Below, one piece after another: positions 3,322 through 28,289 of a stretch of DNA of 28,492 nt. Both the position numbers and the translations under genes were made by a program. The stretch lies in the IMG/VR virus record IMGVR_UViG_3300035703_000350, positions 1-28,492 of that record; one strand, written 5' to 3'. The notes beneath the pieces are model-generated. The model saw only the letters and a program-made list of their open reading frames with translations, was not told the origin of the DNA and ran no database searches. Each line of letters begins with the position of its first letter. Within the stretch, counting starts at the first letter, position 1. The stretch is from a virus.

Positions 3322-3329
3322 GATAAATA
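3322..3329 (+). promoter_or_regulatory. Putative late promoter GATAAATA for the giant fibre gene
   Basis: GATAAATA matches 7 of 8 bases of the T4 late -10 element TATAAATA, and the same 8-mer precedes three other genes here. It overlaps the left arm of the terminator hairpin, so a transcript starting about 6 bases downstream would lack the complete stem. The ATG lies 76 bases further on. Confidence 0.6.
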
Positions 3330-3360
3330 ATTACAGTGATTGCTATCACTGTAATTATTT
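3325..3360 (+). terminator. Intrinsic-terminator-like hairpin after fibre 1
   Basis: Perfect 16-bp inverted repeat, 3325-3340 pairing with 3345-3360, with a TGCT loop. The core is TTACAGTGAT/ATCACTGTAA, and the right arm ends TTATTT, giving a partly U-rich tail. It lies 21 bases after the stop of the first fibre gene. Confidence 0.7.
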
Positions 3361-3381
3361 GGGCGACTTCGGTCCTGACCC
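3361..3381 (+). promoter_or_regulatory. Possible 5'-UTR stem-loop with UUCG tetraloop
   Basis: GAC-TTCG-GTC (3365-3374) forms a C(UUCG)G tetraloop on a short stem. An outer GGG (3361-3363) and CCC (3379-3381) can pair across an uneven internal loop. It sits between the terminator and the AGGAG ribosome-binding site (3392-3396) of the giant fibre. A role in mRNA stability is only inferred. Confidence 0.35.
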
Positions 3382-3405
3382 GTACCTATATAGGAGTTTA
3401 TCTTA

Positions 3406-16688: not shown

Positions 16689-18212
16689 TTATGTTTCTGG
16701 AAACAGCATCCATCCGCCTTGTGAAAATTCGCCTTCGTAACTTTTTGTCCAATATTCGCCAGTCCACTTGTACTGTGAGCCAGTTGCTAAGTTGGTAATG
16801 TATATAGGATTTGGAGAATTTGCTGCATTAAAAATAACTGACCATTCAGCACCGTCATATTCAACTATATCGTTTTCTCCTGCAACAAGATCTCCAAAAG
16901 GTGAATCTGTTGCTTTCCAGCCATCGGCGCCATCATCATTAATTACATTACCAATTTTTCCTAACAGCATAACACGCAAGCCTGAAACAAGTCTAGTTGT
17001 AGGGTTCCATCTTAATGGATCAATGATATAATCGATACTTGTATAACTGTTTGGATTTCTTGCTGGGCCTGGCAACACAGTATTACTAGGCAGTGTATCA
17101 CTGTCCCAATCAACAAATAATTCGCTGGGTTTAAGAGGATTCACTGTAACGTAACCAACTATATAACTTCCGTCATCTTTTAATATTCGTATTTGACTTA
17201 TACCGGGCTTGTAGCATCCTGGATATGCATCAAACAGAGAATTCCAATTCATACTACCTATAGTACCTTTGTCTATCACGTAGGCTTTGTTGCCGATTAC
17301 ATATAATCCTAAAGACAACCAAGTACTGTTAGTCAATGATGAACCAGGCTGTCTAGGTCTAATTTTTCTAGTGACTCTAATATCCATTTCTCCAGTACCG
17401 TCATTTGGAAACTGTCCATCATCAACAATTCTTTCTGCAACCCCGTTGATGTCTGTTGTTTCTCTTTCTTCTATAATTTCAAAATTATTTCCGTCTAACA
17501 AATTGGTAGGAGTGCTTATACCTAGGTCTATGTTTCCTTGACTTTCAGTAAAGACACTGGTGATAATATTTGTAATAACACCTAGTCGCTTTACTTTTGC
17601 TGGAGGAGAAATATATATAGGTGTTGAAAACGCAAGTGTTGCTATGTCTATTTCACTTTCTAAACCTACTGGTATAGATCGGTTGCTGAATTCTATTCTA
17701 TCTAAATTAACCACAGTTAAACTGGTCCAGTCAACAAAATTGTCAGTTGTTTGTATTTCTAAACTAGGATGAAATAATGTTAAAATTTGTTCAACAATTT
17801 GTAATTTTTGATCAGTGTTGCTGCTCCAAATATCTACGTTTACTGACAAATTATAAGGACTTGGCATAAGTCGTTCTACTGTATAGTTGCGTCCTTGTGT
17901 GTTTAGATATTCTTGACCTGACGCATCTACTGCTCTTTCTCTAATGTGAACTTTACTCACAAATGAAGAATCACTGGTGCGTGTTCTATCCATTTCAAGA
18001 CCTGTTATATAAACTGACATTCTTGGCACGCTGGGCAATTTATTTTCTGAGTTGTCTTTGATAATAGAAGCAACTTGACGAGTTAAGTCTCCGTACAGTA
18101 CAGGAATTTGTTTAATATCACCGTCGGCATCCTTATACGAAAAATTACTCATCAAACGTATTATCTGTGTTAGATATCTTCTAATTTGACCGTCATAAAA
18201 ATGTAAACTCAT
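16689..18212 (-). CDS. 15: gp15-like tail terminator / sheath stabiliser, with long C-terminal extension
   Basis: 507 residues. The N-terminal half matches T4 gp15 features: 'FYDGQIRRYLTQI' at the start, 'PVLYGDLTRQVA', 'PSPYNLSVNVDIW', then 'QIVEQILTLFHPSLEIQTT' and 'YISPP'. gp15 caps the top of the tail tube and sheath and joins the tail to the neck. T4 gp15 is about 270 residues, so about 250 residues are added here. The extension contains aromatic mini-modules 'VEYDGAEW' (16842-16869) and 'YKWTGEYW' (near 16749-16772), like ones in gp14 and gp18. The start overlaps the gp14 stop (TAATG), so the two are coupled. Confidence 0.85.
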   Translation of the reverse strand: MSLHFYDGQIRRYLTQIIRLMSNFSYKDADGDIKQIPVLYGDLTRQVASIIKDNSENKLPSVPRMSVYITGLEMDRTRTSDSSFVSKVHIRERAVDASGQEYLNTQGRNYTVERLMPSPYNLSVNVDIWSSNTDQKLQIVEQILTLFHPSLEIQTTDNFVDWTSLTVVNLDRIEFSNRSIPVGLESEIDIATLAFSTPIYISPPAKVKRLGVITNIITSVFTESQGNIDLGISTPTNLLDGNNFEIIEERETTDINGVAERIVDDGQFPNDGTGEMDIRVTRKIRPRQPGSSLTNSTWLSLGLYVIGNKAYVIDKGTIGSMNWNSLFDAYPGCYKPGISQIRILKDDGSYIVGYVTVNPLKPSELFVDWDSDTLPSNTVLPGPARNPNSYTSIDYIIDPLRWNPTTRLVSGLRVMLLGKIGNVINDDGADGWKATDSPFGDLVAGENDIVEYDGAEWSVIFNAANSPNPIYITNLATGSQYKWTGEYWTKSYEGEFSQGGWMLFPET

Positions 18213-19369
18213 TAGTTATCTGCCCTTGGTCTTAATGCTTTGCTAAGGCTCTGTCTTTCAACAACTTCATCATCACAAATAGTACTTGAATTTGTATTGT
18301 TGATAAATGTGCCTTTTTGTGTTTGTCTTGTGTTTGTATTCGATAAAGTATGTCTAACATTATCTTCAACCTTGACCCAGCGTGATCCGTCAAATCTAAA
18401 AAGTCTATTTGGCATAAAATCTGTGCGTAAAAAGTAATCTCCCTTGACAGCGCCTGTTGGAAATGTAATGCCGCTTCCAAAGGTCTCTCCGTTGGGCGCT
18501 AAACCGTCACCTAACAGGTAACCAGTATAACCTGAGCGTGCAGGTGTTTGATTTATTCTGTCGGCTATTTCATTTTGCGTTGATGCATCTAGAGATGTTA
18601 AGTCTGCGGTAACTAGCTCGGTTCTTCCATTTTGATCCACTTGTAATGTATAGAAGTGACTGGTATCGTATCCGCTTAATCCAGCATCTGCTTCTGCTTG
18701 TGCGATCACAGCATTGTTGATTTGCATGTCTTTTTCGTATGTGCTTAATACATCGCCCAATGTTGTATTAGAACCTTCTTCTATAGGCAATTCAAGTATG
18801 TCTTTGTATTCTTGAGAAGCAGTGATTTGTTTTAATTTTAGTCTATACAAATGTGGATACCAAGTTACACTAAATCCTTCAGCTGCGCGAGTGACCTCTT
18901 CTATTACAAAATATCTTTTTAAAGCAACTGCGTAATCGTTTGCTGCATATTCATCTCTTAAATGTGGCAATTCAATAACGTCCCCGGACATTAGTTTTCG
19001 TCCAATGGTTTTTACACTTGAATTAATATGCACAGTTACAAATAAAATGTCGTTGGATAAAAATAAACCAAATTGAGAAAGATTAAAGTCATAATCTTGT
19101 AATTGATAAATTCCTCTAATTTGATAAACATCTTTATCGTATTTTCTATCTCTATTTTCCAGTAACAACAGGTCTTGTATATTTGTTTCTTTTATTACAT
19201 CGTATTGTGGCTGATCAGCAGTTGCATTTTCAGCAGTTGGATTTTTTGGTCCAAGATACTTGTGAACAAACAAGTCTGTACCGCCTACAGAAAATTGTTC
19301 ATTGATAATTTTATCAAAAAATTCGTAGTCGTTACTTTTTTCGGGTCTATAAAGGCTTAAGCGTGGCAT
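18212..19369 (-). CDS. 14: gp14-like neck protein
   Basis: 385 residues (T4 gp14 about 256). Diagnostic stretches seen: 'DLFVHKYLGP', 'TNIQDLLLLENRDRKYD', 'FNLSQFGLFLSNDILFVTVH', 'LMSGDVIELPHLRDEYA' and 'SVTWYPHLYRLKLK', as in neck gp14 of marine T4-like phages; the end 'RQSLSKALRPRADN' also fits. gp14 forms the neck with gp13, closing the head after packaging. The mid C-terminal part contains 'LFRFDGSRWVKV' (18377-18403), the aromatic module shared with gp15 and gp18. There is no Shine-Dalgarno before the ATG, and a late-type AATAAATA ends 4 bases upstream, suggesting a leaderless mRNA. It is transcribed away from gp13, whereas T4 has 13-14-15 in one direction. Confidence 0.83.
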   Translation of the reverse strand: MPRLSLYRPEKSNDYEFFDKIINEQFSVGGTDLFVHKYLGPKNPTAENATADQPQYDVIKETNIQDLLLLENRDRKYDKDVYQIRGIYQLQDYDFNLSQFGLFLSNDILFVTVHINSSVKTIGRKLMSGDVIELPHLRDEYAANDYAVALKRYFVIEEVTRAAEGFSVTWYPHLYRLKLKQITASQEYKDILELPIEEGSNTTLGDVLSTYEKDMQINNAVIAQAEADAGLSGYDTSHFYTLQVDQNGRTELVTADLTSLDASTQNEIADRINQTPARSGYTGYLLGDGLAPNGETFGSGITFPTGAVKGDYFLRTDFMPNRLFRFDGSRWVKVEDNVRHTLSNTNTRQTQKGTFINNTNSSTICDDEVVERQSLSKALRPRADN

Positions 19370-19373
19370 ATTA

Positions 19374-19381
19374 TATTTATT
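19374..19381 (-). promoter_or_regulatory. Putative minus-strand late promoter AATAAATA for gp14-gp15-Nudix
   Basis: Read on the minus strand, AATAAATA runs 19381 to 19374, 4 bases before the gp14 ATG. A TATAAT on the same strand (19384-19379) with TTGAGC 16 bases upstream is an alternative sigma70-like reading. Both predict a start at, or within about three bases of, the initiation codon. Confidence 0.5.
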
Positions 19382-19388
19382 ATAAATA
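19381..19388 (+). promoter_or_regulatory. Consensus T4-type late promoter TATAAATA for gp13
   Basis: Exact TATAAATA in the 36-base gap between divergent gp14 and gp13. The predicted start near 19394 coincides with GGAG (19394-19397), giving a leader of about 12 bases before the gp13 ATG at 19406. Confidence 0.65.
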
Positions 19389-19405: not shown

Positions 19406-20167
19406 ATGGACAACAATTTAGTAACCTACAAACAAGACGTTTATGATTATATACATGCTATGCTGGGCGGCGGCATGGTAGATGTTGAATTAGACCCTAT
19501 TCATTACGAAATTGCGCTAAACAGAGCGTTGAGCAAGTTTAGACAAAAAAGCGGTAACAGTGTTGAAGAAAGCTATGTAACTTTAAAATTGATAAACGAT
19601 ACAAACGAATACATATTGCCGCAGGAAATAATTGAAGTAAGACAATGCTTTAGAAGAAGTGTGGGTAGTAGAAGCGGTGGCGGCGACGGCAGCAGTTTAT
19701 TTGAACCGTTTAACCTTGCATACACAAACACCTATTTGCTAGCCGGTTCCGGAATGGGCGGACTATTAACATACGAATTGTTTGCTCAACAACAAGAATT
19801 GGTAGGCAGAATGTTTGGTAGTTTTATTGAATTTGTTTGGAACCCGTCTACTAAAAAACTCACTCTGCTACAGCGTCCTAGAGCAGGCGAAGAAATTTTG
19901 TTGTTTTGTTACAATTATAGACCTGATAGCGAATTGCTAATAGATTATCTAGCCAAGCAATGGATTAAAGATTACGCACTTGCTACATGTAAATACATGT
20001 TAGGAGAAGCAAGAGAAAAATTTGCAACAATTGCAGGACCTCAAGGTGGTACAAGTTTAAACGGTACTGCACTTAAGGCAGAAGCCAGTGCAGAAATTGA
20101 AAAACTTGATAACGAAGCAGCTCTTGCAGTTGCCGGCGGATATGGATACAGCTTTTTAATTGGATAA
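19406..20167 (+). CDS. 13: gp13-like neck protein
   Basis: 253 residues (T4 gp13 309). The N-terminus 'MLGGGMVDVELDPIHYE' lines up with the T4 gp13 'LG..I-NVEL-P' region. The C-terminus 'QWIKDYALATCKYMLGEA', 'GPQGGTSLNGTALKAEA' and 'GYGYSFLIG' parallels the T4 end 'RWVKDYATALAKE ... PGGVTIDG ... FGILVG'. A run of Gly/Ser near residues 90-98 (R-S-G-G-G-D-G-S-S) is probably a loop. gp13 joins the portal and gp14 to close the filled head. GGAG lies 8 bases before the ATG. The next gene starts 3 bases after its stop. Confidence 0.85.
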   Translation: MDNNLVTYKQDVYDYIHAMLGGGMVDVELDPIHYEIALNRALSKFRQKSGNSVEESYVTLKLINDTNEYILPQEIIEVRQCFRRSVGSRSGGGDGSSLFEPFNLAYTNTYLLAGSGMGGLLTYELFAQQQELVGRMFGSFIEFVWNPSTKKLTLLQRPRAGEEILLFCYNYRPDSELLIDYLAKQWIKDYALATCKYMLGEAREKFATIAGPQGGTSLNGTALKAEASAEIEKLDNEAALAVAGGYGYSFLIG

Positions 20168-21259: not shown

Positions 21260-21267
21260 GCTAAATA
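21260..21267 (+). promoter_or_regulatory. Putative late promoter GCTAAATA for gp18
   Basis: GCTAAATA shares the TAAATA core with the other late motifs. A start near 21273 gives a leader of about 30 bases carrying AAGGAG (21288-21293) before the ATG at 21304. Confidence 0.55.
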
Positions 21268-21303: not shown

Positions 21304-24300
21304 ATGGCATTAGTATCACCGGGCGTACAGGTTAACGTAATCGACGAGAGTTTCTACACTCCGGCCGAACCTGGTACTGTACCCCTTATTTTTGTAGCAA
21401 CAAAAGAGAATAAAACAAATCCGGGAAATACTGGCATTGCGCCCGGTACACTGAAATCAAATGCAGGAAAAGTTTATTTGATTTCAAGTCAACGAGAACT
21501 TTCGGAAACATTTGGCGATCCACTATTTTATACTGACGCAAATAACAATCCTATTCACGGTGGTGAACAAAATGAATACGGCTTACAAGCTGCTTATTCT
21601 TATTTAGGTGTTGCAAATAGAGCATACATTGTTAGAGCAGATGTTGACTTAAATTCGATAACTGCAAGTAGTACACCTGTTACTGGTGACCCAACTAATA
21701 ATTCATACTGGTTTGATACAGATGCTTCTTTTTACGGCGTATTTGAGTGGAACGGTGCTGCAATTACTACAACCAACGGACAGAGCTTTTTAAACAAAGT
21801 ACCATTGGTAATAACTGATACTACAAAAGTAGTCGATTATGCAGGTGGAAACTATACACCAAAAGGCAGCGTTGGTGTAATTGGTGATTATGCTATGGTT
21901 GCAGTTACTGATGTTAATACTCTTTGGTATAAAAATAGATTAGGAACTTGGGTTAAAGTTGGTACTCCAGAATGGAAAGCCAGCCATGCTATTGTTACTG
22001 GTGCAAATGCTAACCCAACATTGATTGTGGGCAGAACTATTACCTTTAGCTTGACCAGCGACAGTACTGGAAATCAATACAACGTAACTACATCAGGTGC
22101 TACAATAGCATCGTTGGCATCTGCTATTAACGCCAACACTGCGTTGGTAACAGCAGGTATTACAGCCAGTGTTGTAAACAGCCGTCTTGCAATATTTTAT
22201 TCAGGCGCTTCTGGAGACACAGTTGAACTATACGGCGACGATGCTACATTTACACTGTTAGGAATATCACAGGGTGATTACTATGCACCAAAGCTTGAAA
22301 TTGCTCCACATACTAGTGTTCCAGAATTTAAAACAACTGATACAAATCCACGTCCAACTGGTTCGTTGTGGGCAAAAACCACTACACCTAACTTGGGTGC
22401 AAATTGGAGCATCAAACGTTACAGCTCAGACACTGCATCTTGGACCACAATACCTGCTTCGATATATGCAACTAATACCGCAGCAATCTACGGTTTAGAC
22501 AGCACAGGCGGTGGTGCAAATCTAGTTGAGGGACAACTATACATTCAAAGCAACGTTGCTGAAGATGGCGACAAGCTTGCAACATTTAAATTGTTTAGAA
22601 GAAATTCTTCAGGCGAAACTTCGATAACCAGTGCAAAAGTAACTGCATCGTCATTCCCTGCAGGAACACACTCATTTAGTTTAACAGAAACACTTGCAGG
22701 CGAATCAGCTACTACAACAATGACTGTTTCATTTGTTGCAACAGGCGCTACAAGCGACGCAGACGTGCTTGCTAACGCAATCAATGCAAAAGGCTACACA
22801 CATGTTAGTGCAAGTGTTAACGCACAAAATAGAGTTGTAATTTCTCATACAACCGGTGGTGATATACGTTTTGTTGACACCAGTGGAATATTGGACAATG
22901 TGTTTACACCATATGTATCCACTGATCCAACAAGCACTACCAACTTCTATTATGCTCCAGGAACAGATCAAAACACTAGTCCTAAAGAGTTTATAGCTAC
23001 ACTTTGGAAAGTATTAACATATACTGCACAAACTAGCGAACCAACAACAACTCCAGCACAGGACGCATTGTGGTACAGCAGTGTTATTGACGAAGTTGAT
23101 ATACTATATCACAACGGAACAACATGGGTCGGTTATAAAGACAATGCAACTGCATTCCCTAATACAGATCCAAATGGGCCTATTGTTTCGGCAACTGAAC
23201 CAACTGAACAATCAGATGGCAGCGCTCTTGTAACCAACGATTTGTGGATTTCTACAGCAGATATAGAAAACTATCCTACTGTTTATCGTTACAATGCAAC
23301 AACCAGCAAATGGACATTGGTTGACAAAACTGATCAAACCACTGAAAATGGTATACTGTTTGCTGATGCTCGTTGGAGCACTGCTGGTACTAGCGAAAAT
23401 GCTGCTGATATTGTTGATCTACTTGAAAGCAATTATCTTGATGCAGATGCACCAGATCCTGCACTATATCCAAAAGGCATGTTGCTATGGAATCTACGTC
23501 GCAGTGGATTTAACGTAAAGCGTTTTGAAAGAAACTATGTGGACATCGAAGGCACCAACACTAGATACAACGATGAATCAATGACCAACTACTACCCACA
23601 TCGTTGGGTTACTGAGTCAGCAAACAACATCGATGGATCAGGATCGTTTGGACGTAACGCTCAACGCAAAGTTGTTGTTCAATCATTGCAAGCAAGTGTA
23701 AACAGCAACGAAGATATACGTGATGACGAATCAAGAATCTTTAATTTGATTGCATCACCAGGATATCCTGAGCTTATCGGCGAAATGATCAATCTAAACT
23801 ACGACAGAGGGTTAACAGCGTTTGTAGTAGGCGATAGCCCAATGAGACTGCAACCAAACACTACATCTATAAACAACTGGGCTAGTAACGTAGCATTGGC
23901 TGTTGAAGATAACGATCTAGGACTTGTAAGCAGAGATGAATACCTTGGAGTTTACTACCCAGCTGGATTCACCAGCGACAACGCAGGTAATAACATCGTT
24001 GTACCACCAAGTCATATGGCGTTGCGTGTAATTGCACTTAACGACCAAGTTGCATATCCATGGTTTGCACCAGCTGGTACACGTCGTGGAGGAGTAACCA
24101 ACGCATCAGCAGTTGGATACATCAGCAACGAAGGTGAGTTTGTAAGTATTAGTCTTAACGAAGGTCAAAGAGACACATTGTACCAAGCAAACGTTAACCC
24201 AATAACATTCTTAAATGGTGCTGGCTTGGTTGTATTTGGACAAAAGACTCGTGCAAGAAATGCTAGTGCGCTTGACAGAATCAACGTTGCAAGATTGGTA

Positions 24301-24623: not shown

Positions 24624-24631
24624 GATAAATA
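24624..24631 (+). promoter_or_regulatory. Putative late promoter GATAAATA for gp19
   Basis: GATAAATA abuts the palindrome. A predicted start near 24637 gives a leader of about 19 bases with AAGGAG (24640-24645) before the ATG at 24656. Confidence 0.6.
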
Positions 24632-24655: not shown

Positions 24656-25300
24656 ATGGCAATCTCATCATTAACAAAACTAACAGTACCATTAGCAACC
24701 AACGATAGTGCATCGGCACAGGGCTTGCTAATGCCTAAATTACAATACCGTTTTCGTGTAACATTAGAAAACTTTGGTGTAAGTACTCCAACTACTGAAC
24801 TTACAAAACAAGTTATAGACGTAACACGTCCTAACTTAACATTTGCAAACATGGAAGTTCACGTTTACAACTCGAAAATAAACTTAGCAGGTAAGCACAG
24901 TTGGGAAGCAATAACTCTCAATTTGAGAGAAGATGTAAACAATAACGTTCAAAAGCTAGTTGGCGAACAGCTACAAAAGCAATTTGACTTTATGGAACAA
25001 GCAAGTGCTGCTTCTGGATCAGATTACAAGTTCTTAACACGTATTGAAATACTTGACGGCGGCAACGGTACGTTTACTCCGACTGTATTAGAAACTTGGG
25101 AATGCTACGGTTGTTATCTTGCAAGCGCAAACTATAACTCACTAGACTATGCAACCAGTGAACCAGTTACTGTTACTCTTAGTATTCTATATGATAATGC
25201 AGTTCAATTCAACGGTGCAACAGGCGCAGGCCCAGATCGAGGACTTGGTGCAAACGTTGGACGTTCAATAAGTACAAACGCAACAGGCGCAGGCATTTAA
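24656..25300 (+). CDS. 19: Tail tube protein gp19
   Basis: 214 residues (T4 gp19 163). The gene directly follows the sheath gene, as in T4. Features: 'LMPKLQYRFRVTLENFGV', 'QVIDVTRPNLTF', 'VHVYNSKINLAGKHSWEAI' and 'LNLREDVNNNVQKLVGEQLQKQ', then 'YKFLTRIEILDGG' and 'ETWECYGCYLASANYNSLD'. This is the gp19/gp54-type tail-tube fold, with a strand pair, the 'E.W...G' C-terminal hairpin and 'PVTVTLSILYDNAVQF' at the end. Rings of it form the tube inside the sheath. Strong AAGGAG site, separate late promoter before it and a classic terminator after it point to high, independently set expression. Confidence 0.88.
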   Translation: MAISSLTKLTVPLATNDSASAQGLLMPKLQYRFRVTLENFGVSTPTTELTKQVIDVTRPNLTFANMEVHVYNSKINLAGKHSWEAITLNLREDVNNNVQKLVGEQLQKQFDFMEQASAASGSDYKFLTRIEILDGGNGTFTPTVLETWECYGCYLASANYNSLDYATSEPVTVTLSILYDNAVQFNGATGAGPDRGLGANVGRSISTNATGAGI

Positions 25301-25323: not shown

Positions 25324-25354
25324 AAAAGGGAGATTAATTTCTCCCTTTTTTCTT
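25324..25354 (+). terminator. Intrinsic terminator after gp19
   Basis: AAAAGGGAGA (25324-25333) pairs perfectly with TCTCCCTTTT (25340-25349) over a TTAATT loop, and the T-rich tail runs on to 25355. It is the clearest intrinsic terminator in the window. Confidence 0.8.
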
Positions 25355-25376: not shown

Positions 25377-25384
25377 GATAAATA
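25377..25384 (+). promoter_or_regulatory. Putative late promoter GATAAATA abutting the tube-like gene
   Basis: The motif ends 5 bases before the ATG at 25390. A T4-type start 6 bases downstream would fall on the A of the ATG. No Shine-Dalgarno is present between the gp19 terminator and the ATG. Confidence 0.55.
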
Positions 25385-25389
25385 TTTAT

Positions 25390-26391
25390 ATGGGATTTAA
25401 TGGATATTATGATAACTTTAGTTCGTACGGTAGCTTAAAAGGAAACTTAGGCGATTATAGTCATGCGGCCAAGCTGTATCGAGCAAACAATATGTTGTTG
25501 GCTCCTAAAGTTAAGTTTTTATTTCATATTGTAATCAATATAAACCCGTCAATTAAAACACTAGGGTTGGACAGAAACGAAATAAATCTTTTAGCTAAAA
25601 GTGTAGACCTGCCTAAATACAAAACACAAACTGAAACATTAAACCAATACAATAGGAAAAAAGTTTTACACACAACTGTACAATATTTTCCATTGAATAT
25701 AGAATTTCACGACGATAACAAAGGTGCAACAACTAAATTATGGAATTCATATTTTAATTATTATTACCAAGACAGTAGATACAGTACAGTTTCAGGGTCG
25801 TCGCCTAGCATATCAGAAAGTGCATATTCTCGCACAGTTAGTGGTTTAAATACAGCGTATGGATCACCGGATCTACAAAAATTTAGATACGGACTTGACA
25901 CCCAAGGAAAAGTTTATAACTTTTTTACAAGTATACAAATATTCCAACTGCACCCTAAAAACATTGTTCCTACTTTCACTTCGTTTACACTAATAAATCC
26001 GTTGATTGATTCGTTTGAACACGACAATATGGACTATAGCCAAAGCGAATTTGTATCAAATAGATTGTCTGTTTCTTTTGAATCGGTACAATATGCCCAA
26101 GGCCCAGTTTTATTAGGTGTATCACCAACAGGGTTTGGCGAACCTGCACGTTATGACTTGGGCAAAAGTTTATTGGACAATCCTTTTGCCAATATTAACG
26201 TTAACAGTGGAATTAGCAATGTTAAAAAAACAAATTCTGCTGTAACATTATCAACAATAGAAAATCTTTCAAAACCAGCAACTGTAGCTACACCACAAAC
26301 AGTTGTTACCACCAATCAGTTAGGAAATATAGAATTTCCAACACAAGGTTCTGTTAGTAACACAACAGTAGCATCTCAAAGAAATTTTTAA
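25390..26391 (+). CDS. Second tail-tube-fold-like structural protein
   Basis: 333 residues. The start 'MGFNGYYDNFSSYGSLKGN' and 'LGDYSHAAKLYRANNMLLAP' fit a conserved marine T4-like family, which supports this ATG despite the missing Shine-Dalgarno. 'INLLAKSVDLPKYKTQTETL' with 'NQYNRKK', then 'FPLNIEFHDD' and 'LWNSYFNYYYQD', is the pattern of tail-tube-fold proteins (gp19, gp48 and gp54 group). 'FFTSIQIFQLHPKN' and 'YTLINP'-like 'FTLINPLIDSFEHDNMD' follow. It may be a baseplate tube initiator or cap like gp54 or gp48, but I cannot choose between these and a lineage-specific tube component. It heads a cluster with the 122-residue protein and gp4. Confidence 0.75.
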   Translation: MGFNGYYDNFSSYGSLKGNLGDYSHAAKLYRANNMLLAPKVKFLFHIVININPSIKTLGLDRNEINLLAKSVDLPKYKTQTETLNQYNRKKVLHTTVQYFPLNIEFHDDNKGATTKLWNSYFNYYYQDSRYSTVSGSSPSISESAYSRTVSGLNTAYGSPDLQKFRYGLDTQGKVYNFFTSIQIFQLHPKNIVPTFTSFTLINPLIDSFEHDNMDYSQSEFVSNRLSVSFESVQYAQGPVLLGVSPTGFGEPARYDLGKSLLDNPFANINVNSGISNVKKTNSAVTLSTIENLSKPATVATPQTVVTTNQLGNIEFPTQGSVSNTTVASQRNF

Positions 26392-27218: not shown

Positions 27219-27719
27219 ATGAATAAAAAGTTAGAAGATTTATTTAATTTGCCAGAAGCAAAAGAAATACTAAAACAAGAAAAAACTAAAGAAAAAAAAG
27301 AACAAACTGTTGAAATAGCAGAACAAAAAAAAGCATTTAGAGATATTGCAGAATTTGATAAAATTGCTGCTGCCTTGCCAGCAGTTGATGGCCTAGGACA
27401 AATGGCTGATCGCGAACTAAACGAAATTGCCGAAAAAGCCATGAGTGCGTACGAAGATTTAATGGACCTTGGTATGAGTGTAGAAGCAAGATTTTCTGGA
27501 CGTGTGTTTGAAGTAGCAGGAAATATGTTGAAAACCAGTTTAGATGCAAAAGTAGCTAAACTGGATAAAAAGTTAAAAATGATCGAACTTCAGCTTAAAA
27601 AAGAAAAACAAGACAAAGATGCGTCTCCTGATTCAGGCTTTACTGAAGGCGAAGGCTACGTAGTAACAGATAGAAACAGCTTATTGCAGCGTCTTAAAGG
27701 CATAGAACGAGATAAATAA
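27219..27719 (+). CDS. 16: Small terminase subunit gp16-like
   Basis: 166 residues from ATG 27219 (T4 gp16 164). The frame opens earlier, but this ATG has AAAAGGAAAG 6 bases upstream and avoids overlapping gp4. The protein is highly charged and helical: an acidic N-terminal arm, then 'EFDKIAAALPAVDGLGQMAD', a central long helical hairpin (about residues 75-130, 'AYEDLMDLGMSVEARFSGRV' onward) suited to ring formation, and 'YVVTDRNSLLQRLKG' at the C-terminus, which I recall from marine T4-like gp16. The small terminase recognises DNA and regulates the large subunit gp17, which is not in the window. In T4 gp16 sits before gp17 near gp15; here it follows gp4. The call rests on pattern, size and place. 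Confidence 0.68.
   Translation: MNKKLEDLFNLPEAKEILKQEKTKEKKEQTVEIAEQKKAFRDIAEFDKIAAALPAVDGLGQMADRELNEIAEKAMSAYEDLMDLGMSVEARFSGRVFEVAGNMLKTSLDAKVAKLDKKLKMIELQLKKEKQDKDASPDSGFTEGEGYVVTDRNSLLQRLKGIERDK
27711..27718 (+). promoter_or_regulatory. Putative late promoter GATAAATA inside the gp16 stop region
   Basis: GATAAATA coincides with the last codons and stop of gp16 (GAT-AAA-TAA). A start near 27724 would give a short leader with AGGA (27728-27731) before the ATG at 27741. Confidence 0.5.
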
Positions 27720-27740: not shown

Positions 27741-28289
27741 ATGAAAAAACTTAACCAGTACATCATCGAATCTAAAAAAACTTATCCTTTTAAGATAGGT
27801 ATAGCTGGAGACATTCCAGCTGATACCAAAGAAAAGCTAAGTATGCATTTAGAAAAATTCGGTGTTTCTAATTTAAGTACAGGAAAAAGAACTCCTATAC
27901 AAGAACGTCCACTAGACTTTCCAAATTTAGAAAATTTAGAAGTAACATATTTTGAAGTAGAATTAATATATCCTACTACAGACAGTGTATTAAAAGAATA
28001 CATAGGAAATGTATGTAATTTTCCTAGAAGTCATATAGTTGTTAGAAATGCAAACGGTCCGCTTGAAGAAATTCAAAACAAAGTAGAAGATAGCACATAC
28101 GAAACTTTGTTAAACAAAGAAGACTTAGGCGGCGAAAGTGCGCAAGAATTTGTTGGAAATTCTCGTGTAATGGATTTATTAAAAGAATTAGAAGTAGCAC
28201 GCAAGGAACGTGATAAAAATTCCAGTGGTTTCAAGATTGAAACATTTAAAGAGGAACCACAAAATAAAAAAAGTGTGGTAGGAAAATAA
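27741..28289 (+). CDS. Conserved hypothetical protein of the head gene cluster, 182 residues
   Basis: AGGA lies 9 bases before the ATG. The N-terminus 'MKKLNQYIIESKKTYPFKI' is followed by a compact alpha/beta stretch with 'EKLSMHLEKFGVSNLS', 'RTPIQERPLDFPN', 'VTYFEVELIYPTTDSVL' and 'FPRSHIVVRN'. The strand-helix-strand-strand-helix-strand order (about residues 16-105) suggests a small ferredoxin-like fold; this is inferred by eye. The C-terminal third is charged and helical ('MDLLKELEVARKERDKN'), possibly coiled coil. I recall similar proteins near head genes of marine T4-like phages without a known role. The next gene begins 4 bases after its stop. Confidence 0.72.
   Translation: MKKLNQYIIESKKTYPFKIGIAGDIPADTKEKLSMHLEKFGVSNLSTGKRTPIQERPLDFPNLENLEVTYFEVELIYPTTDSVLKEYIGNVCNFPRSHIVVRNANGPLEEIQNKVEDSTYETLLNKEDLGGESAQEFVGNSRVMDLLKELEVARKERDKNSSGFKIETFKEEPQNKKSVVGK

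Follow-up and report, generated by a model that had tools for sequence, protein, structure and literature searches.

The late genes of phage T4 are the textbook case of expression led by a Shine-Dalgarno (SD) site, with which the conserved leaderless sub-class of late promoters predicted here contrasts, and the cI transcript of phage lambda is a classical leaderless phage mRNA. According to the accessible text of PMC1524935, with which that of PMC2988020 is consistent, the T4 late motif occupies positions -13 to -6 relative to the transcript start, and the late motif of Aeh1, CTAAATA, begins at -12 (PMC1524935). The jumbo phages CBB and GAP32 carry an ATAAATA late motif before structural genes and a gp55-like sigma, as described in the accessible part of PMC5259590. 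In bacteria, a -10 element lying about 10-12 bp before the start codon has been the basis for calling TA-led genes leaderless (accessible text of PMC3160421), and a passing statement in the accessible part of PMC5312081 holds that phage transcripts are often leaderless. Within the accessible open literature I found no description of T4-type phages making leaderless late transcripts; the transcriptome of cyanophage Syn9 (PMC5029184) may bear on the matter.

The window, that is, the whole 28,492-nucleotide stretch analysed here, is a 28-kb piece of a contig from a large T4-like aquatic phage known from DNA surveys alone. Its genes encode tail fibre, neck (gp13-, gp14- and gp15-like), sheath, tube, second tube-like and gp4-like proteins, the gp names resting on family match, gene order and the labels of the sequence-only reading that preceded this work. 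An Rfam search returned 0 matches. Between the stop codon of the tube gene gp19 (25300) and the second tube-like gene lie a terminator-like hairpin of 10 pairs with a loop of 6 and a T-rich tail after it (25324..25349, plus strand), the late-promoter motif GATAAATA (25377..25384, plus strand), a five-base spacer, TTTAT (25385..25389), and the ATG (25390..25392). The sequence-only reading had placed the end of a late-type promoter five bases before this ATG, with no SD site between the gp19 terminator and the start; the spacing proves right to the base, no SD match of at least 4 bases is found at this gene or at the gp14-like gene discussed below, and the motif, its fixed spacing and its conservation all speak for a late-type promoter. 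The frame upstream of 25390 contains a TAG at about -15 and lacks any further ATG, GTG or TTG. A scan of the region for sigma-70-type promoters listed no site ending at the motif. A minus-strand TATAAATA at 25390-25383 overlaps the promoter and was set aside as incidental because, among the tube-like upstream regions compared, the spacer that creates it occurs only in the window and in one relative (L012).

The downstream gene (25390..26391, plus strand) encodes a protein of 333 aa matching phrog_4542 (E 1.3e-18). A structure model of low overall confidence (mean pLDDT 53.8, with core blocks at about 70-80) retrieved 5iv5_BG (E 4e-7) and 6rao_F (E 9.8e-7) in Foldseek, and VIA-align superposed it on 6rao_F with Z 10.2, an rmsd of 5.2 and 143 aligned residues. 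The chains matched by this low-confidence model are tube and tube-initiator proteins, including those of the T4 baseplate-tail-tube complex; a profile search of PDB sequences gave 0 matches. Family and fold together thus support a tail-tube-like identity for the product, and a tube-initiator role is a guess.

Under the spacing rule in the accessible part of PMC1524935, a motif at -13 to -6 followed by a five-base gap puts +1 on the A of the ATG, which would make 25390-25392 both the 5' end of the mRNA and the start of translation. In the leadered promoters of two relatives, a 330-kb contig (G001) and a 157-kb contig (G002), position five after the motif is occupied by A in 30/48 and by C in none, which is consistent with initiation at base 5 or 6 after the motif. 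The earlier proposal of a start on the ATG itself is supported by sequence to within about one base. Both relatives, the two that were searched, encode a gp55-like sigma, which is absent from the window, itself a 28-kb fragment. This locus resembles T4-type (gp55) late promoters in having a TATAAATA-like octamer, variable in its first base, about 10 bp before the expected start and ahead of virion genes, and in the gp55-like sigma of its relatives. I infer that the T4-type late promoter at 25377-25392 very probably yields a leaderless mRNA, transcript start, gp55 dependence and mode of initiation all being predictions from sequence. In such a scheme the hairpin would end the transcript of the upstream tube gene, late polymerase carrying the gp55 sigma would start afresh at the A of the ATG or no more than about one base from it, and the second tube-like mRNA would carry a 5'-terminal AUG that presumably loads ribosomes in place of SD pairing. 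The gp14-like gene would be expressed in the same way.

The window holds 7 copies of DATAAATA where 8.8 are expected, so the motif is not enriched, but all 7 are intergenic, and their neighbouring genes include virion families; it is position, not count, that carries the signal. I counted how often TAAATA, with A or C before it, and each of the 14 other permutations of the hexamer stand 3-7 bases ahead of a modelled ORF's ATG. In the window TAAATA occurs there twice, against 2 occurrences in total over the 14 permutations (0-1 each). In the 330-kb relative the count is 16, with 0-6 for each of the others, even though no permutation is rarer than TAAATA in that genome as a whole (133 sites versus 236-468); in the 157-kb relative it is 11 against 1-3. 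The close placement of motif and ATG is not due to chance.

A search with the tube-like protein found 55 relatives, of which one (L058) was dropped because it has no start in register, leaving 54 which with the window make 55 sequences. The sequence-only reading had suggested aligning the upstream region in relatives, and in these sequences the core TAAATA is kept in 55/55 at 4-5 bases from the ATG: exactly 5 bases in 54/55 and 4 bases in 1/55. An SD match of at least 4 bases occurs in 0/55 of these upstream regions, so its absence in the window extends to the whole set, and a terminator-like hairpin precedes the gene in 51/55 under a strict rule. The set spans 32 distinct 40-nt upstream sequences and protein identities down to about 35%, and the CTAAATA form of the motif is common in it. 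In ten near sequences only 3/40 upstream bases vary, whereas the variable sites in codons 2-34 number 5/4/19 at codon positions 1/2/3; as far as these ten sequences tell, the upstream region is under more constraint than silent sites.

That third-position bias means that translation covers codons 2-34, and it bears directly on a downstream start, which the sequence-only reading had named as an outcome that would overturn it. The next in-frame ATG is codon 35, which is Met throughout the near clade, but over 20 relatives Phe3 is invariant and Met1 nearly so, while Met35 is neither; with the coding signature running through codons 2-34, a start at codon 35 is almost certainly wrong. It is also unlikely, given that the motif is held at a fixed spacing and that a terminator intervenes in 51/55 sequences, that translation of the gene relies chiefly on read-through or processed transcripts beginning upstream of gp19, with the motif as a minor promoter. 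This arrangement does have a counterpart among named isolates, for in 5/6 of them (Atu_ph07, Phosso, 121Q, BF and CBB) 10-12 bases separate the tube-like gene from the tube gene ahead of it, an SD-like site is present, and the start has no motif of its own beside it; in the window's group, however, the read-through RNA would be without an SD site too. In Pseudomonas phage Cassandra (L063:2700-2779) the tube-like gene also stands behind a terminator-like hairpin, and the sequence before its ATG, ATTGGATTTATAT, is without the motif.

Might TAAATA before the ATG be an AU-rich signal for translation instead of a promoter? The close sites do stand right at start codons that lack SD sites, but the same motif lies 14-40 bases upstream of genes led by SD sites (70/81 in four related contigs, 20/22 in T4), it comes after terminators, and gp55 is known to use this motif (accessible text of PMC1524935), all of which makes a purely translational role very unlikely.

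The gp14-like gene (18212..19369, minus strand), which encodes a virion protein of 385 aa (phrog_11591), is the second predicted leaderless gene of the window. Its motif, AATAAATA (19374..19381, minus strand, read 19381-19374), is followed by four bases and then the ATG at 19369, exactly the geometry that had been claimed for it. Among the best 80 of 463 gp14 relatives found, the core lies 4-8 bases ahead of the ATG in 80/80, with gaps of 4 bases in 13, 5 in 21, 6 in 5 and 8 in 41, these 80 being about 25 distinct upstream strings, so that the counts are of sequences and not of independent events. The 8-base gap (41/80 of the best 80 of 463) perhaps leaves a leader of 2-3 bases. The core falls within 8 bases of the gp14 start in 0/10 named isolates; in 6/10 it lies 19-31 bases upstream, with an SD-like site judged by eye. 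CBB shares the late motif of this group and differs in its gp14 orthologue, which has an SD leader, as well as in its tube-like orthologue, which sits in an operon with an SD site. The 157-kb relative carries, near record position 54387 (L088), about 50 inserted codons that upset the start of gp14. This insertion has its own motif and ATG, after which the gp14 frame is without an obvious ATG; that it is the remnant of a homing endonuclease is a guess.

The window also contains promoters of the leadered kind, all on the plus strand. At gp19, GATAAATA (24624..24631) is followed by 24 bases with AAGGAG and then the ATG at 24656; at the sheath gene, GCTAAATA (21260..21267) by 36 bases with AAGGAG and the ATG at 21304; and a further GATAAATA (27711..27718) by 22 bases with AGGA and an ATG at 27741. 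The gp13-like gene, which is divergent from the gp14-like gene, has TATAAATA (19381..19388), then 17 bases with GGAG, and its ATG at 19406. Between gp14 and gp13, at 19374-19388, lie two overlapping late motifs placed back to back, with the leaderless arrangement leftward and the SD-leadered one rightward. Ahead of the 3332-aa fibre gene, at 3322-3405, come GATAAATA, an inverted repeat resembling a hairpin, and 76 bases that include AGGAG.

For a wider survey I measured the gap from each intergenic motif to the ATG of the next ORF in four relative contigs of 157-330 kb, two found through the tube-like gene (G001, G002) and two through gp14 (G006, G007), with ORFs modelled by length, and in the isolates T4, PA5oct and Sharanji. 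Gaps of 3-8 and of 14-40 bases number 15 and 31 in G001, 11 and 8 in G002, 10 and 19 in G006, and 6 and 23 in G007, against 0 and 22 in T4, 2 and 37 in PA5oct, and 1 and 30 in Sharanji. Gaps of 9-13 bases occur at 3 sites in the four contigs together and at 5 in the isolates (T4 2, PA5oct 0, Sharanji 3), and gaps of 0-2 bases at 0 and 4 sites, respectively. In the four contigs an SD-like match of at least 4 bases accompanies 4/42 close sites versus 70/81 distant ones; in T4, where 20/22 distant sites have one, 0/24 motif-to-ATG gaps of up to 40 bases are under 9, unlike the sub-class seen here at 3-8 bases and without SD. The contrast of contigs and isolates for close versus distant sites gives a Fisher p of 5e-9, a value to be read with caution, since related genomes do not supply independent sites and the four contigs were picked through the same two genes at issue. 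Sequence comparison thus supports well the view that the late promoters of these aquatic T4-like phages form two sub-classes, leaderless and SD-leadered, the former being a variant of the T4-type late promoter. This class resembles bacterial TA-led genes in the inference drawn and in the lack of SD sites but uses a phage late-sigma motif on virion genes where those use a sigma-70 Pribnow box (accessible text of PMC3160421). It likewise shares a 5'-terminal AUG, here predicted, and the absence of SD with the leaderless mRNAs of lambda (same source), and differs in comprising several late genes of a gp55-type system, conserved across genomes and predicted from sequence.

The idea that two virion genes with one arrangement point to a class is borne out by its conservation in relatives. 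Reciprocal best matches among the four contigs (six comparisons) gave 70 orthologue pairs with both promoters classed: 22 leaderless in both, 33 leadered in both and 15 mixed, so that class agrees in 55/70. All four contigs have the leaderless arrangement at the second tube-like gene and at the gene for a 659-aa virion protein (phrog_13484), and three of the four have it at gp14; gp13 falls in the leadered class in G001 and in the leaderless class in G002. Class is thus not fixed, and from the mixed orthologues and the leadered named isolates it follows that leader state is an evolving trait which stays leaderless in the window's wider group. The RNA may be leaderless and yet the near-contact mean nothing for regulation, reflecting genome compaction with a leader of 0-3 bases tolerated by the host; this competes with a regulatory meaning, not with leaderless mRNA itself, and I consider it somewhat more likely than not. 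Switches of class between orthologues (the 15/70 mixed pairs) agree with it, while the keeping of class over deep divergence and the near-emptiness of gaps 9-13 (3 sites in four contigs) do not.

As for regulation, the sequence-only reading had supposed that the leaderless class may respond to ribosome state, and for this I found no support. Phage-encoded translation factors were rejected as a general explanation, since bS21 is encoded in 1/11 relative records and IF3 in 0/2 relatives searched, and so was reduced 5' structure as a mark of the class, leaderless genes being as structured at their 5' ends as leadered ones. The sheath and tube genes belong to the leadered class and the second tube-like gene and gp14 to the leaderless one, as a rule based on low copy number would have it, but the leadered class also takes in a baseplate wedge protein and gp13, so this rule is unproven. 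Start-codon choice fails as a mark, ATG dominating both classes. It is unlikely that one late sigma serves two translation programmes, an SD-led and a leaderless set separated by ribosome initiation in late infection (e.g. 70S initiation or altered ribosomes), which would keep low-copy neck and tube-initiator proteins in proportion to the abundant sheath and tube. If the leaderless class is real, phages can set late translation at the level of the single promoter, the class would hint at hosts in which leaderless mRNA is translated efficiently, and start-site calling in these genomes would gain a guide.

The bS21 gene found is that of the 330-kb relative (L188:1456-1686), where the adjoining ORF was read as GMP-reductase-like. 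The bS21 phages in the accessible text of PMC9723584 reach 331 kb, and their bS21 gene lies on the reverse strand, in a region that also contains TerL; the ORFs flanking bS21 in the relative look different, and that text makes no mention of leaderless transcripts or promoters. As a clue to the host, bS21 was pursued in one scan of genome contigs, which confirmed no relative. In the same 330-kb genome (e.g. L084:6354-9413 and L081:10524-10799), 7/17 leaderless genes start like M-x-[LIFM]-x-[EN]-[LI] (MLIREL, MLLREL, MKINEI), against 0/32 leadered and 11/389 other genes there and 0/12 leaderless genes in the 157-kb relative, for a pattern chosen after seeing the sequences. I presume that this N-terminal pattern may be a head-targeting propeptide (cf. 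T4).
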